Shown here: piece by piece, positions 8,973 through 63,881 of the stretch
Numbering within the stretch: the stretch's first letter is position 1
Layout of the letters: every line of letters starts with the position of its first letter
Assembly (NCBI GenBank): GCA_938743325.2
Contig: OW568882.1
Span: forward strand, 1-64,000
DNA: 64,000 nucleotides
Reading direction: 5' to 3'
Source of the DNA: Pycnococcus provasolii
Lineage: Eukaryota > Chlorophyta > Pseudoscourfieldiophyceae > Pseudoscourfieldiales > Pycnococcaceae
Made by a program: the position numbers and the translations under genes
The notes under the pieces: model-generated
The model's database searches: none
What the model was told of the DNA's origin: nothing
What the model saw: the letters and a program-made list of their open reading frames with translations, nothing else

Positions 8973-9066
8973 CTAACCCTAACCCTAACCCTAACCCTAA
9001 CCCTAACCCTAACCCTAGATCTAGGGTTACATCTAGGGTTGAATCTAGGGTTACACCTAGGGTTAT
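8973..9066. repeat. Second telomere-like block with palindromic turn
   Basis: About seven CCCTAA units (8973-9017) turn into degenerate TAGGGTT units of the opposite strand sense (to 9066), spaced by ACATC, GAATC and ACACC. The turn is a perfect 18-bp palindrome at 9011-9028 (AACCCTA-GATC-TAGGGTT). It marks the inner boundary of the subtelomeric repeats; gene sequence begins right after it. Confidence 0.9.
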
Positions 9067-28628: not shown

Positions 28629-31600
28629 GCCCCCTCCTCCACCGAGCCCACCGCCGCCTCCACCTCCGCCACCGCCGTCTCCTCCGCCGCCGTCTCCACC
28701 CCCTCCCCCTCCGCCGTCTCCGCCACCGCCACCGCCACCACCGCCCTCGCCACCGCCTCCACCACCACCTCCACCTTCTCCACCACCACCTCCACCTTCT
28801 CCACCTCCACCTCCACCACCTAGTCCGCCACCACCTCCACCATCTCCTCCGCCGCCGCCACCCTCGCCTCCTCCGCCGCCGCCACCCTCACCTCCTCCGC
28901 CGCCGCCACCACCACCATCTCCTCCTCCGCCGCCTCCAGCGCCTTGCGTATCGACGAATTCGTGTCCCCCGCCTCCGCCGTCGCCTCCACCTCCACCTCC
29001 ACCTCCGTCTCCTCCGCCACCTCCACCTCCATCGCCACCACCGCCACCACCACCACCATCTCCTCCGCCACCTCCACCTCCATCGCCACCGCCTCCACCA
29101 CCACCTCCACCTTCTCCACCTCCACCACCTCCTCCATCACCACCACCACCACCACCACCACCACCTCCGTCTCCGCCGCCGCCGCCACCACCACCACCAC
29201 CTTCTCCGCCGCCGCCGCCACCACCACCACCACCTTCTCCGCCGCCGCCACCCTCGCCACCGCCACCACCTGCGCCATCACCGCCGCCTGCATCGTTTGG
29301 CCTTGTTGGCGCTGCAATTCAAGGTTGCTCAGCCGATGCAAGTTGGGAGAGATGTGGAAGTTGTGTGGACATCAACTCAGACGGCACACGAGCAGCCATT
29401 GTAGCCACAGGTATTCCTGCAAGTGCTTACGGAGCGCCTGTTGGCGGAGTCGATCCAAAAGTCCAGGTATACGAAAATACTGGTGGTGGATGGACTCAGT
29501 TAGGTGGGGATTTACCAATAGATCTTACAATCGCATTCATGTCCGACACACCCGAGACCTTTACCATCGGTGGTCATAGAATGAATGATTGTATATCTAT
29601 GTCGGACGATGGTGCACGGGTCGCCGTCGGATTTTCTGGAGATTGGAGAACTCCGATAAAACTTGGGCTTGCTCAAGTTTTTGAATATTCTGGAGGCACT
29701 TGGACGCAGCTTGGAAATATTATGTACGATGATAATAATGGTTATTATAAAATGGCGATGTCGGGTGAATCCACATTATTTGGTTATTCCGTATCTTTGT
29801 CGGGAGATGGAACGCGTCTTGCAGTCGGCGCGCCTCAATACAGCAGTTCTAGCTGTAAATATGTACTTCGTCATAATACATACATGTACACATATAGGTC
29901 GGGCATGTCTTGCGGGAAAGTATACACATGGGAATATACTTCGACTTCTTGGACGAGCATAGGCACTTTGGAAATATATATCACGCCTTCATATTTTGGT
30001 ACTGGGGTATCTCTATCAACGGATGGATCGCGAATGGCTGTGGGATCAATGAGAGGACCGGTACCGAGTACATGCATCAGTCCAAGTTGCAGCAGTGGTA
30101 ATGTGAACATATACGATTACGGTGGTGGAACATCGTGGTCGCTGGTTGGGAACACAATTGAAAATACAGGTGGTCACGGATTGGATGAGTTTGGCCATTC
30201 CGTCTCGTTATCATCGGATGGGAGTCGAGTGGCTGTGGGAATCCCACGGAAATCACGATCATCCACAGGATCAGGATCAGGATCATCCTCAGATCCTCCT
30301 GGCGCGGTGAAAGTGTATGAGCTCAGTGGTTCATCATGGACACAAATGGGGTCAGACATTAACGGAGAATTTAATGCTGACGACTTCGGGGAATCAATAT
30401 CCCTCTCAGCAGATGGTTCAAGACTGGCCGTTGGATGTTTTGACAACCACCAAAGTGCCAATAGTATGGGATTGAATGCAGGTTCAACTCGTATATACAT
30501 ATGGAGAGCGTCAACGACCTCGTGGGAGCACATTCTCTCATACGACATAGATGGGACTGCGAGTTGGGCCTATTCGGGGTTTTCAGTAGGTATGTCTGGC
30601 GACGGGAATCGTATCATCATCGGCGAACCAAGAGTGAGTTATGGCCAAGCAGTTGTTTACGAATTGCAAAATTTCGTAAGAAGACAACTGAAACACTCGG
30701 ACTTTGCAAGCTTAGGATTCGCCGAGAGGGAAGATGATAATAATCTTGAACAGGCCAGCAGGGTTGAATACAATCGCAGTCGTCGTTCGCACCTCATAAT
30801 AAGACCATCAATGTACCAGCCAGATTCACACTGTGTGAGCTCATCCTATAAAAACGTCGTCAGCAAGCGACTCTCGCCACAAACCGACTGCACAGTGCTT
30901 CCTACGCTCGGCGGCGCACTCCCTGCCCCGAATATCGAAAACAGGAAATTTGCGGCAGTCACCGTGCCATGCTCGTTGCTCGCGCGACTCCCAGATGCGG
31001 GTATCCTTTCCAGCATGTACATGTACGAACCGACAAAGAATCCTGCAGCTCTTGCAGCCTTAGGTGTTCCTGACGACGACGACCCGGGCGTGACGCACAA
31101 TGCCGCCGGCCCTTTGGTGTCGCTTTTGCCTCACGACTTTCCAGTTTCACCCGACGTAATCACTGTCGAGATTCCGTACCAGCGCAAGCTCGGAGGCAGC
31201 ACGGATATCCCGTATGCACATATGATGCCTGACGAAGGGTCGACGCAGTGGACAAACATTCCGATCGAGGCGACGAATTGCGACGGCACAGCTTGCGTTG
31301 CGATCATCAAGGCGAGCAGCTTTGCCATCTTCGTCGTAACGGTGGACCCGCCACCACCTCCACCTCCTCCGCCGCCTTCGCCACCTCCACCGCCGCCTTC
31401 GCCACCTCCACCGCCACCACTGCCGTACTTGCCCCCACCACCTCCGCCAAGCCCGCCACCCCCTCCAGCTCCAGATTTCCCGCCGCCGAGACCACCTCCG
31501 CCGAGTCCGCCGCCAAGCCCGCCGCCAAGCCCTCCACCACCGAGTCCCCCGCCGGGCACGAAGCCACTATCACCACCGTCGACTCCGCAGTCACCGCTCG

Positions 31601-50109: not shown

Positions 50110-52017
50110 TCAAACGCTCGCGCGGGTGCTCTTGGGCTTCGAGCCGAACCTCAGGCACGCGTAAGCGAGCCGGCCGACGCGACCGCCGCAGCAGCCGAGT
50201 GCGTGCACAAACCGGTACACCGTCGCGCGAAAGCTACCTAGCAGCAAAAGCGCTAGCAAGGTTATCGTCACAAACGGATGGATCGCCACGCACTCCCACG
50301 CAACGCTCACGAAAAACCAGAAGCGAGTCTCGTACAGAGAAGGCGCGCCAATCGTGCTGCCCAAGAAAGTCGTCGCGTGAGGGTACGCCCATAGCAACAG
50401 CGCGCTCAGCCACGCGGCAGACTCGAGCAACCAAGATCGCCACGCGCAGCGCGTGAAGATTGCCATGCTGACGAGAGCGCCGAGAGCGCGCGCGTGCAGC
50501 TGCTCGTTGTATGCGACGAGAAGGTGCTCGCGCGTCCCTCTGCGCCTCTCCTCTAGACGACCTTGGTGATAAGAACGACGTGGGCCCTTGCACTTGACGT
50601 CGAACGTCGACGACATGCACGAAGCAATTCCCGCGTCGAAGCGTGCCTTCGACAGAAGCACGCCAACGCTCGAAAGACTGTCCATCGCCTGTTCGCACTG
50701 CAAGGCAGCAGCCTCGCATCCCGACGTGCTCATGAGCGCGTTGTGCTCGCGGCATGCATCCGCGTGCTCATTTACGCGGCTGAGCAGGCGAGCACTGACG
50801 CCGGACGTGCCGAACCTTCTGCTCAGGTAACACGTTTCCACCGCCGTGGCATTTGCCGCGGAAATGCGCGCCTCCAGCACGTCCGTCTCGAGCGGAAAGC
50901 CACCCGCGCCGCGAACCTCTGTGCGGAACGCATCCGAGCAAACGTCCACAAGCTCGTGGTTGAATGCCTCGACGAGATTTCGACTCCAGCTCGGAAGCTC
51001 GGTATCTGACAGCGCCTCGACAACGCGCTCAATCAACGTCGCAAGTGCCTTGCCGTCCATAGCCGAATCACGGAGAATGGCCAGACGTCGAGGCTGCGAG
51101 GCTGCGCGCGATCGAATGTCGTGGCGCAGGTCATGCATCTGGGTCACGTACGTCGAGTCAAGCTGATCGTCGGTAAGCTCACACAGTCGCGTCCGATCAA
51201 CGTGAGGTTGCCTCAGTCCGCGGCCTATGTGCTCCCACCCAAGCGAGCGTAGGCTCAGCCGCACATCATTCAGTTGCGCGAGGTCGCGGTTGTTGTCGGG
51301 GTTGGCGTGCTCAGCGAGCGCCGTGTCCACAGCCTGCTGCACGGTAGACCCTTCGAGAAAGTCGCGCTGGATGAGCCAATACAGCGTGCCTGGTGGGAAT
51401 CCCTTGGACTGCAGTTTCGTTGCGCTCGTCTTGTTCGGCGCGACAAATTCCTTCGCGAGGTCCATGGCGAATGACAGCTTCATGATGTCACCCTCACGAA
51501 CGCTCTCGGGTAGATTGTACACGAGCACGGAGCTGACTGCGGCGGCAAAAGCGAAGAGACGGTCGTCGTAGTTTCCACTTCGTCCTGCGCTCTCAAATCC
51601 CTCCGTGTCGATGTAGAACACGCGCGTCGCGGGCTCTGCACTCGCGTCGGCGTCGGCGTCGGCGGTGACCGCCTCGCTCCAGATCCACGCGCCCTTTGTC
51701 TGCGTTTCTCTCCTATGTCCGACGCCAAATCCTTCGTCGCAGGGTACACCCAGCAATCGGTTGAGCAGAAAGCTCTTCCCACTTCGGTACGGCCCAATAA
51801 CGCTCACGAGACTGACGGGCACGCCGTCTGGCGATCTCCGCAAAACGTCGAGACCCCGTGAATCCGCCTGCAACCTCGTGTGGTCGTCCGTCGGCGCGAC
51901 GAGTCGGATCGGCTCGCCAACACGAGTTGCACTTACCAGGGCGCAGTGCTGTGACCATAAGCAGTGCAAGATAGCGACGAGGATGAGCCACCGTAACCAG
52001 CCATGGCTAGCGGCCAT
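50110..52017 (-). CDS. GBP/atlastin-like large GTPase
   Basis: 635 residues, no intron in the coding part. The G domain shows GPYRSGKS (75-82), an RRETQTKGAWIW switch I region with the conserved Thr, DTEGFES (137-143) and LIQRDF near 215 as the Arg-Asp guanine-specificity motif of guanylate-binding proteins. A helical middle follows (about 320-520). At the C terminus are two or three hydrophobic segments (about 535-615) and a basic tail. Such GTPases tether or fuse membranes, or are interferon-type effectors in animals; a role in ER shaping is inference. Odd: the N terminus (WLRWLILVAILHCLW) looks like a signal peptide, which would place the GTPase domain on the luminal side unless it acts as an anchor. 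Confidence 0.87.
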   Translation of the reverse strand: MAASHGWLRWLILVAILHCLWSQHCALVSATRVGEPIRLVAPTDDHTRLQADSRGLDVLRRSPDGVPVSLVSVIGPYRSGKSFLLNRLLGVPCDEGFGVGHRRETQTKGAWIWSEAVTADADADASAEPATRVFYIDTEGFESAGRSGNYDDRLFAFAAAVSSVLVYNLPESVREGDIMKLSFAMDLAKEFVAPNKTSATKLQSKGFPPGTLYWLIQRDFLEGSTVQQAVDTALAEHANPDNNRDLAQLNDVRLSLRSLGWEHIGRGLRQPHVDRTRLCELTDDQLDSTYVTQMHDLRHDIRSRAASQPRRLAILRDSAMDGKALATLIERVVEALSDTELPSWSRNLVEAFNHELVDVCSDAFRTEVRGAGGFPLETDVLEARISAANATAVETCYLSRRFGTSGVSARLLSRVNEHADACREHNALMSTSGCEAAALQCEQAMDSLSSVGVLLSKARFDAGIASCMSSTFDVKCKGPRRSYHQGRLEERRRGTREHLLVAYNEQLHARALGALVSMAIFTRCAWRSWLLESAAWLSALLLWAYPHATTFLGSTIGAPSLYETRFWFFVSVAWECVAIHPFVTITLLALLLLGSFRATVYRFVHALGCCGGRVGRLAYACLRFGSKPKSTRASV

Positions 52018-52200
52018 GGCAAGGCGCTTTTCTTTCTCGCCTTGTGTGTGGCAACTGGCAAGGCCACAACGACCGGAGGGGAAGCAAAGGCGCGGAAGGA
52101 ACCCTAACCCTAACCCTAACCTGGGAAAACTTGTTTCTTTTCTCTCGCTTCCTTTCCTCTTTACACGTCACCCTTCTGCCTGTTCCTCTTACACCTCATG
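52018..52200. promoter_or_regulatory. 5' flank of GBP-like gene with telo-box
   Basis: Three CCCTAA units (52103-52121) lie about 90 bp upstream of the minus-strand ATG. Read on the minus strand the edge is CCCAG followed by GTTAGGG, which could also serve as a 5'UTR splice donor. Confidence 0.5.
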
Positions 52201-52435
52201 ATGCATGGTTGGTGGCGCTGGCGACGACATAAACGAAAACATGTCGCAACCGGAGCCCTCACTACGCCAACGAAAGCGCCCTGATAGAGTGATATAGCCT
52301 TCGAAATCACATGCGCCATGAACAAAAACGCGCAGTGAATGGCACCGGTGAATGGGCTGAATGGTGAAAGTGAATGATGTGAATGGACGACCGTTGGACA
52401 AACTAATGTGCAACTTCATTACTGAATGAGGGATC
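52201..52435 (-). repeat. Dispersed repeat, copy 3 (5' part only)
   Basis: Matches the first two thirds of copies 1 and 2, ending at GAGGGATC. Its edge lies at the far end of the rhodanese 3' flank. Confidence 0.88.
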
Positions 52436-52515
52436 TCAGCTTCAGCCTGCCGACGTGCCGCTCCCTATGAGCAGATGCTGTATGCTTTTCACGTGCGGTG
52501 GCGTCACAAACTGTT
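52430..52515 (-). promoter_or_regulatory. Candidate SECIS-like hairpin
   Basis: Minus strand, about 270 nt past the in-frame TGA of the rhodanese. It has GTGAC (52503-52507) at the 5' quartet position, 13 nt later AAAA, a CTGCTC/GAGCGG inner stem, then CACGTCGGCAGGC closing on CTGAAG. The stem between quartet and AAAA is broken by mismatches and the apical part is longer than usual, so this is only a weak match to the eukaryotic SECIS consensus. Confidence 0.3.
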
Positions 52516-52664
52516 CGCATGGTTGGTGGTTTGGTCCAAATGGGGCAAAGCGCTCTCCGAAAAAGAAACGCCGATGTTCTGCGAATAAGGAAGGGCGTTA
52601 GGCAAAACGTCGAAATTGCGCCGTTTTCCTTGCACCTAGTTATTCTCAATAAAAGGTCAGGCAC

Positions 52665-53084
52665 CTAGCCTGAGTAAGCCGCCCATGCCTCGGGCTGCTT
52701 CGGTCCACCTCCGTTGAGCGCCTTCTTGCCAGCCGCTGTGAGCATCGCGCAGGCTCCCCCGGCGCGACCTCCCGACTGTCAGTGAACGATGAACGTGTCT
52801 CCAGACTCTGCCAACTTGGCGACTTCCTCTTCCGTCCAACCTCCCGCGTCACGCTTCCACTCGAGGACGACCGCGCCTGCCACGGTGGGGTTGCTTGCCT
52901 GTTGCATGTGCAGGAGTGTGTTAAGGTTAGTGCAAATGTGAAATCTCGTGGGCGGCTCGTTATGACGTCCTTTGAAGCAGCCAACACTAACACTTACAAT
53001 TTCCGCCTCGCCGCGTATGTCGACGACGACAGCGCCATTCGCCGCGGCCTCCGCGAGTTCGCTGGCGGAGGAGACTGCAGCCAT
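52665..53084 (-). CDS. Rhodanese-like sulfurtransferase, probable selenoprotein
   Basis: Two exons, 52998-53084 and 52665-52898, around a 99-bp GT-AG intron (donor GTAAGT, acceptor AACAG). About 106 residues, a single rhodanese domain. Exon 1 gives VVVDIRGEAEI, the first strand. Exon 2 runs VAGAVVLEWKR, then EEEVAKLAESGDTFIVH, then an in-frame TGA (52779-52781), then QSGGRAGGACAMLTAAGKKA and ALNGGGPKQPEAW to a TAG at 52665. Rhodaneses carry Cys-X4-Arg in the active-site loop after VxxH/Y; here TGA replaces exactly that Cys and the loop QSGGR follows intact. The simplest reading is selenocysteine at residue 69. Alternatives are a truncated protein, a nonsense mutation or a base error. It is divergent from the exostosin gene (250 bp). 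Confidence 0.75.
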
Positions 53085-53334
53085 TCTTTCCTTCTTTCTT
53101 TCCTCCTGGTGGAATAAACAAACGGGAAGAGGAAAGGACGGAAGGAACGCGGTGGGAAAAGAGTACCGGGTCAGGGGTGGAAAAGAAACAAACAAGAAAC
53201 TGTCACCTTCCTAAAAAAGGCGACGGACTGCTTAGGCTGCTAGTATCCGGGGATCCACTAAAGGTCGGGTACGGTTTTCCCTTTTCCCTCGCCCTACCCA
53301 TATAGGCTTTAGTTTTTCTCGCCGCCTTGGATCG

Positions 53335-62013: not shown

Positions 62014-63881
62014 ATGTCATGTTATTGCACCTGTTCTGCCGTTTCAGCGACACGCCGTCGAGGGAATTGCCCAGGTAAGGTTAGGGTTAGGGTTAGGGTT
62101 AGGGTTAGTACCTCCCGTGCCTGGGTGCAGCGTCCTTCCAGCCTTCCGGGCTTAATACATACCTCTTCCCCCTCTTCCAACAAGGCCACGCAGCAGGGCC
62201 CCTTACTCTTACAGCAAGACCTGTGTCTCCCGCGCCAACGACGATGATGACAACAAACGACAAGGACGGGAAGCGTGCAAGTGGTGGTGCGAACGCACAG
62301 CTTGCACAACCTGCTCCCGTTGCGCAAGCCAACGACAAGGCAGAAACAACGACGTCAAAACAACAGCCGCCCTTGACCGTCTCGCAGAGGAGGTTGCTGG
62401 CCATACAAAAGCTGGCCAAGGTGTTCGGCAACAACAGAACCAACAGGCTCGACATAAGGGAGCTCATCGCGGCCGAAAAACACAGCCTCAGAGCCATCAA
62501 GCGCGTCACAAACGAATCGCACATAGCGCAAATATGCCAACGAAGGCTCGCTGTGATTCGGGGGCAGACGTCCGACTTCTTCGACGACTCGGATGACTCG
62601 GATGACGAATACCTGGTGGAAGAGGACTCGTTCAAGCTTACGCAACAACAAAGGAAGAAGAGAAGCAAGTTGCGATCGAAGCAGCTGTACAGGTACATGC
62701 ATCGTGCCGTCTCTGGCGTGTTGCCAGCCGACTTGGAGCTGCTTACGGAGGAATTCTGGCTGCAGGTGTCAAAGTGGGAGGAAATCTACGCAGAGGAAGC
62801 CGAAGCCGCGCAACGCGAGGGAGCACCTTACGCCGCAGCAGCAGGTTCCCGCGAAAACTTGATTCGGCACGGCTACTGCGTTGCGCCTCCAACGACCTCG
62901 GGTTGCGCTCCTGAAGTTGCAGCCATCACACGTGCTATCGACATGCTTGCCGAAAATGGCTGGCATCCCGCGTTCGTCTGGATGCTTCCCGGGACTTGGA
63001 AATACGCCTCGCGGATGTTTGACCTCGCTAATGAGCTGACAGCGCCGGGCGAGACGCAAGTCTCCGGTGACGTGACCATGGAGCCAACGCCATTTGCGTG
63101 GAAGTTGCGGCCGGGTGGGCGCACGAAAACGGACAGGGGTGGCAACTTCCCGCTGCCGCACCGTGACTACGCGCACGACGAGGTGTTTGAGCCAGGCGTA
63201 CAGGCACCCGCCGTGCTTTCTGTTTGGATTCCCGTTGTCGACGTCAACGCGTCGAGCGGCTGCATGTACATGCTGCCTCGCGGCGACGATGTGCTGTTTG
63301 ACAAGCCAAATCACGCCGCTCACATGCGAGCAGCCTTGCCGGCGGATGACGATGACAGCGACGCCGAACGCGAAGCTGCAGAAGGGACGAGCGACGACGA
63401 CAGCAAAGAATCTGGTCAGGACGCGACGAATGCGGACTCATTCGTCGACGACCCCGAGGTGATTAAGACGATCGAGACGCGCTTTCCGTTCCACCGCTGC
63501 GTTCCCGTCGCGCCGCTAGGTGCAGGCACTGCCGTCGCATGGGCGGGAAACACATTGCATTGGGGTTCGTCGTGCGCGGCAGAGCCACCGCCGCATGTGT
63601 TTCCACCCGCGCCGCCGCGCCGCTCCATTGCGTTCACGTTTCGTCGCAGTGGTGCCAAGGTGCATCGTGCAAGCTCGCGCGAGGGTCCCATCACGCGTTC
63701 GGAGGCGGAGGCGGGCGTACCGGACATTGAAAGGAGGTTTCGCATCGTCATGCAAAGCATTGTGCTGTACAGTCAGTGGATAGACATGAGCCTCTGCGTT
63801 CCAAGGGAGTACTGCCTAGAGACGAGTCTGCACGAATCGGAACAGTTGAGACATGCCCGATTGCGTGAACCATCCATGTAA
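62014..63881 (+). CDS. PhyH-type 2-oxoglutarate/Fe(II) dioxygenase-like protein
   Basis: Preferred model: exon 1 62014-62074, intron 62075-62214 (CCAG/GTAAGG donor, CTTACAG acceptor), exon 2 62215-63881; the junction codon GCA keeps the frame, giving 575 residues. A one-exon model from ATG 62244 (545 residues) is the alternative. The N-terminal 200 residues are basic and helical with an acidic FFDDSDDSDDEYLVEEDS stretch. The C-terminal half has a double-stranded beta-helix of the phytanoyl-CoA dioxygenase superfamily: LPHRDYAHDE (His and Asp at about 336 and 338), APAVLSVWIPVVDVNASSG, MYMLPRGDD, distal LHWGSSC (His about 469) and RRSIAFTFRR as the 2-oxoglutarate Arg. An acidic insertion (about 395-435) splits the domain. 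Substrate unknown. Confidence 0.75.
62075..62108 (+). repeat. Telomere-like (TTAGGG)n at a 5' splice site
   Basis: Five GGTTAG units start in GTAAGGTTAGGG, directly at the proposed intron donor of the PhyH-type gene. The G-rich strand is the sense strand. Confidence 0.85.

Follow-up and report, generated by a model that had tools for sequence, protein, structure and literature searches.

Does a TGA triplet lying exactly where a rhodanese carries its catalytic cysteine specify selenocysteine (Sec), or does it mark the end of a shortened or decayed protein? The question is raised by a small gene in the genome of the green alga Pycnococcus provasolii, located in a stretch of 64,000 nucleotides (contig OW568882.1, positions 1 to 64,000 of the forward strand), which we refer to in its entirety as the window. 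A preliminary description, made from the letters of the window alone, had proposed that the gene codes for a probable selenoprotein and had guessed at a prasinophyte as the source, which fits its placement in the Pseudoscourfieldiales. The assembly of P. provasolii CCAP 190/2 is reported to have 32.2 Mb in 44 chromosomes, with a mitochondrion of 24.3 kb and a plastid of 80.2 kb (PMC11130579). The genome that we searched comprised 32,333,900 bases in 46 contigs.

Structure of the rhodanese gene

Re-translation of the window reproduced exactly the coordinates, the splice, the TFIVH-TGA peptide and the 37 codons to TAG of the preliminary description (Table 1). The spliced translation of exons 1 and 2 is MAAVSS...TFIVH-TGA-QSGGRAGGACAMLTAAGKKALNGGGPKQPEAWAAYSG-TAG, and the predicted full product is a single-domain rhodanese of 106 residues with one in-frame TGA. 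The frame has no stop other than this TGA and no shift, and the intron is kept.

Table 1. Positions in the window of the rhodanese gene and of the SECIS-like element that follows it
Feature	Position	Strand	Description
Rhodanese gene, whole coding span	53084 to 52665	minus	Two exons, one in-frame TGA
Exon 1, coding part	52998..53084	minus	29 codons, 87 nt, MAAVSS...GEAEI; ATG at 53084; N-terminal half of the rhodanese with the V-D-I-R strand; from translation, with the same start and junction in P0001
Intron	52899..52997	minus	99 nt, phase 0, GTAAGT...CAACAG; donor GT at 52997; splice repeated in P0001
Exon 2, coding part	52665..52898	minus	77 residues, start at 52898; TGA and terminal TAG within; spanned by the genome protein match with one TGA inside
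In-frame TGA, predicted to be read as selenocysteine	52779..52781	minus	Catalytic cysteine position of the CX4R loop (U-Q-S-G-G-R)
Terminal stop TAG	52665..52667	minus	37 sense codons after the TGA
SECIS-like core	52441..52507	minus	GUGA, 14-nt 5' arm, AAAA, apical mini-stem, 3' arm, UGAA; form-II-like; from the descriptor scan
SECIS-like element with basal helix I	52437..52513	minus	CAGUU / AGCUG, pairs by eye; best duplex of the flanks -3.9 kcal/mol

Protein searches with the product returned four matches, P0001 to P0004, and relaxing the limit added none. P0001, a deposited 68-aa protein of Pseudoscourfieldia marina, has the identical splice junction and ends at the residue of the TGA. P0003 and P0004 are translations through the intron, in which the intron letters differ and the exon letters are kept. 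The splice call is supported by these two observations, the shared junction of P0001 and the pattern of variation in P0003 and P0004. In a single-protein search, no relatives were found in bacterial and archaeal genomes, viral contigs or plasmids.

The TGA occupies the position of the catalytic cysteine

A single-protein search was insufficient to reach the wider rhodanese family, which was reached solely with a three-row alignment as query; this three-sequence profile, made of the product and two paralogues from the same genome (L033 and L035, described below), reached 98 proteins. For the alignment, the truncated or out-of-frame sequences P0002 to P0004 were set aside; the remaining 97 of 100 proteins, together with L033 and L035, gave 99 rows in addition to the query, one of which, P0001, ends before the column of the TGA. 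Cys occupied that column in 98 of the 98 homologues with a residue there, the two paralogues included, a count that overstates independence (the search profile itself held Cys at this position and some rows are near-copies) while its outcome is still uniform. The earlier assignment of the TGA to the catalytic Cys thus holds. The active-site loop C(U)X4R is present as U-Q-S-G-G-R, and its Arg is common to L033 and L035.

The spliced protein scored 32.0 bits against PF00581 (cut-off 22.2) with Cys at the TGA and 26.2 bits with X. With D, G, S, R, L or W in this place the score fell from 28.8 down to 24.5 bits, Cys being the best of the seven residues. The part before the TGA alone scored 12.9 bits, and the part after it gave no PF00581 match by itself. 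Against a profile of the homologues after their Cys, the 37 codons following the TGA scored 33.0 bits in frame and -1.8 and -0.9 bits in the other two frames, and shuffled versions of the peptide reached 11.3 bits at best (1996 of 2000 shuffles scored). These scores agree with the proposal that coding is intact past the TGA, with the loop Arg and the GGP ending kept. A PDB sequence search gave weak matches only. One of these, obtained with the Cys form as query, placed the TGA residue opposite the Cys in the rhodanese part of CoA-persulfide reductase (8a56); it was gone when X replaced Cys at the TGA.

The open frame past the stop would also be expected if a near-cognate tRNA decoded the UGA as a standard residue such as Trp or Arg and no selenium were involved, and other eukaryotes are known to show read-through. 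However, the score is 24.5 bits with Trp and 25.9 bits with Arg, compared with 32.0 for Cys, which every homologue with a residue has at this position, and both the SECIS-like element and the Sec machinery described below are present. We consider ordinary read-through to be extremely unlikely.

The stop recurs in other sources

The P0001 protein has I in place of the window's V two residues ahead of the stop, which falls at the same residue in both. The P0002 protein, encoded on an ENA contig whose origin is not stated, likewise ends at the residue of the window's TGA. In P0001 and P0002 the position of the stop is known from the protein ends, not from the letters of the codon. P. provasolii and P. 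marina are reported to have 100% identity in the 18S rRNA gene (PMC11130579).

That the TGA is an error of sequencing or assembly, standing in for a genuine TGC or TGT, is a general possibility with nothing beyond that in its favor. Because the consensus quality reported for the assembly, made with HiFi reads, is QV 58.2 (PMC11130579) and the stop position recurs in P0001 and P0002, a base error is unlikely, and an error would leave the SECIS-like element unexplained. The correction of the TGA to a Cys codon for which the preliminary description had allowed has, in our assessment, a vanishingly small probability.

The same deposits can be read in another way. A recent nonsense mutation of a Cys codon (TGC or TGT) to TGA, leaving a pseudogene or a 68-aa stub, would agree with the annotation of the P. 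marina deposit P0001 as a 68-aa protein ending exactly at the TGA position. In that case the function might have passed to the Cys paralogue L033. Against this, the frame after the TGA is intact and conserved, with no other stop or shift and with the intron kept, and the stop position is common to P0001 and P0002, though their letters differ from those of the window. Moreover, the TAG is followed after 157 nt by an element with the SECIS-like architecture typical of this genome. A recent nonsense mutation is therefore very unlikely; rather, the deposited gene model of P0001 is likely to have been cut off at a Sec codon.

A SECIS-like element in the 3'UTR

The 3'UTR was scanned with a descriptor consisting of (A/G)UGA, a helix, AA located 8-16 nt further along and a GA that closes the element. 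The descriptor was built on the 3'UTRs of six GPx and SelT/SelW genes of the genome, and was settled on these controls after the candidate region had been scanned. In the first scan, five of the six GPx/Rdx TGA genes had an element 53-100 nt past the stop; the sixth, with a longer apical part, was found once the loop limit was widened. Five of the control elements have GUGA; the exception, in L018, carries AUGA and a helix with unusual bulges.

The rhodanese element starts with GUGA at 52507, 157 nt after the TAG, and has a folding energy (E) of -22.0 and 11 pairs. Its architecture is that found beside the GPx, SelT/W-, SelF- and SelU-like genes of the genome; its mini-stem is longer than that of most controls, and an unconstrained fold favors a different pairing. 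Among 500 dinucleotide shuffles of the 647-nt 3'UTR, four gave a site at -15 or lower and none at -22, and one gave a site at -15 when AAA was required. The background of the descriptor was seven sites at -15 or lower with AA, and four with AAA, on both strands of the window (128 kb), the rhodanese site being in both sets. In 177,336 bases of 26 other loci it was 14 sites with AA, one of which is the element of the SelF-like gene, and four with AAA, three of which lie behind SelU-like genes.

The best of the other SECIS-like sites in the window, on the minus strand at 31134 (E -23.0), is as good by the descriptor and lies inside long open frames. No selenoprotein was seen beside it, nor at six further SECIS-like sites, and the 31134 site is probably a chance match.

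The Rfam model for SECIS (RF00031/SECIS_1) gave no match in positions 51000-53300, even at E up to 10, and a scan of the window with Rfam found no family at gathering level. Over the whole genome (133 of 326 candidates scored), RF00031 gave two sub-threshold matches, one being the element of the SelF-like gene (L013) and the other in a locus, L014, where no nameable selenoprotein was seen; behind the six GPx and SelT/SelW genes it found nothing among the candidates scored. A laxer search of eight TGA-bearing selenoprotein loci (L013, L015, L016, L018, L020, L021, L022 and L038) matched one of them, L013, at 24.6 bits, below the 35-bit cut-off. Since the model misses seven of the eight selenoprotein loci, its silence on the rhodanese 3'UTR says little. 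Alignments of the local elements made with MAFFT had GUGA or AA columns out of register in some row in four of five cases, and the fifth, with four sequences, appeared too small to inform. On the SECIS, the outcome thus favors the preliminary description: the descriptor finds a SECIS-like element with the genome's own architecture, and Rfam's SECIS model gives no score.

Selenocysteine machinery and other selenoprotein genes

The preliminary description had made its reading depend on the presence of Sec machinery in the genome. Both tRNA-Sec, with the anticodon TCA (69.5 bits; cut-off 47 bits), and eEFSec (L029; PF21208 and PF21131, 505.6 bits to PDB 5izk) were found, and likewise SecS, the Sec synthase (249 bits), and selenophosphate synthetase (selD, L026; 265 bits). 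Other genes with a single in-frame TGA were also detected: four of the five GPx matches and two of the three Rdx (SelT/SelW) matches have one. An in-frame TGA is also present in a SelU-like frame (L038, GUFFC) and in a SelF-like frame (L013, CKUK), the latter scoring 76.1 bits against PF08806 with Cys in place of U.

Three SelU-like (PF13911) genes, L037, L038 and L039, have strong SECIS-like elements after them, and an in-frame TGA was shown in L038 alone; in L037 and L039 the TGA may lie in an upstream exon or in another frame. Selenophosphate synthetase itself has Cys at the usual Sec site, where many others have Sec. It is encoded in one frame of 825 aa with an N-terminal extension that is NADH-dehydrogenase-like by eye, and such a fusion has been described from other protists (PMC4561486).

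Cysteine-containing paralogues

A genome-wide protein search found two stop-free paralogues of the rhodanese gene: L033, with 40% identity over residues 8-103 (E 8.6e-10), and L035, which matches residues 63-98 (E 0.009). Where the query reads VH-TGA-QSGGR, the loops of the paralogues read VHC-KTGGR (L033) and THC-GAGGR (L035). L033 and the relatives P0005 and P0009 resemble the query in being small rhodaneses with the D-I-R strand, a VHCxxGGR loop and the GGP ending. L033 differs in having Cys where the query has the predicted Sec, and its open frame is longer, at 197 aa; a scan of the 3.3-kb L033 locus gave no SECIS-like site with an E of -15 or below. In the tree, the TGA-containing rhodanese groups with L033, P0005 and P0009 at 99/92, a grouping in which the program flags the meeting of long branches. 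The gene is likely to be a Sec member standing beside a Cys paralogue.

Telomere-like arrays

Interstitial (TTAGGG)n arrays are present in the window at 8977-9012, 52102-52119 and 62079-62108, that at 52102 lying about 85 nt ahead of the start codon (ATG) in a neighboring GBP-like gene. Similar arrays occur in L015 (1103-1138), L016 (1292-1327) and L020 (1106-1141), some 170-400 nt upstream of where the selenoprotein domain is matched (1501), and downstream of the domain match in L018 (2486-2503) and L021 (2288-2317), positions being locus coordinates on the strand of the gene. Arrays of at least three units were found in five of the six GPx/Rdx selenoprotein loci and in both rhodanese-gene loci (L032 and L034), and in none of the 31 other loci examined, SelF-like, SelU-like and organelle loci among them. 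This enrichment may be a matter of sampling, with short genes showing more of their flanks. Arrays of the CCCTAA/TTAGGG type also occupy positions 90-344 of the window, near the start of contig C22, the longest with 26 units (90-245); the start of the window is probably a chromosome end.

Discussion

The invariant Cys column, the conserved frame past the TGA, the SECIS-like element and the Sec machinery all support the earlier reading of a probable selenoprotein. We conclude that the rhodanese gene is almost certainly a genuine selenoprotein gene, in which Sec would take the place of the catalytic Cys; both the insertion of Sec and the sulfurtransferase mechanism of the product are deduced from sequence. 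When a ribosome reaches the UGA, the GUGA...AAAA...UGA stem-loop of the 3'UTR would serve as the SECIS, and SBP2 bound to it would bring eEFSec with Sec-tRNA(UCA) to the codon. Sec would then be inserted, and translation would continue for 37 codons to the TAG. In the predicted enzyme, the selenol of the loop would accept one atom of sulfur (or selenium) from a donor, carry it as Se-SH and hand it to a thiol acceptor, perhaps in a faster transfer than that of the Cys paralogue. A division of labor is also conceivable, in which the Cys form handles sulfur and the Sec form delivers selenium to selenophosphate synthetase, in the form of Se-SH or Se-SeH; we regard this as speculative and unlikely. 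If it were true, the supply of selenium to all selenoproteins would depend on a selenoprotein.

In bacterial selenoprotein genes the SECIS belongs to the coding region and immediately follows the UGA. The P. provasolii gene differs from the prokaryotic rhodanese-like selenoproteins in being spliced and in having its SECIS-like element in the 3'UTR. Five prokaryotic forms (1-5) are tabulated in a 2026 review; forms 1, 2 and 4 are listed there under PF00581, and forms 2 and 4 have the motif UxxG, as does the U-Q-S-G of the product described here (PMC13188914). A marine survey also lists sulfurtransferase selenoproteins (PMC2398784). Among eukaryotes, rhodanese is named as one of 42 algal selenoprotein families and is described as "likely to be a sulfur transferase" (Jiang et al., 2020; PMC7539508). 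Like our query, the algal protein is a predicted selenoprotein with a rhodanese domain from a eukaryotic alga; the text consulted in that article does not name Pycnococcus and gives no sequences, so that the two are compared by description only. The gene may already be in the supplement of that article or in its database, SPDB.

A literature search on Pycnococcus and selenoproteins returned nothing on this gene, its sole match concerning genetic codes, and among titles and abstract openings retrieved for rhodanese with selenoprotein terms none was on this gene. In the text available to us of a survey of Archaeplastida, neither Pycnococcus nor rhodanese is mentioned (PMC6627142). Rhodanese selenoproteins have thus already been reported in prokaryotes and algae, and the P. 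provasolii gene is a further case. It adds a well-supported eukaryotic rhodanese selenoprotein from a lineage for which the literature searched holds no selenoprotein paper. That the local type of SECIS, mostly GUGA with AAA or AAAA, is largely missed by Rfam's model matters for the annotation of this lineage. Finally, the Sec and Cys forms of one small sulfurtransferase in one genome would constitute a natural pair, bearing on what selenium gains in persulfide chemistry.
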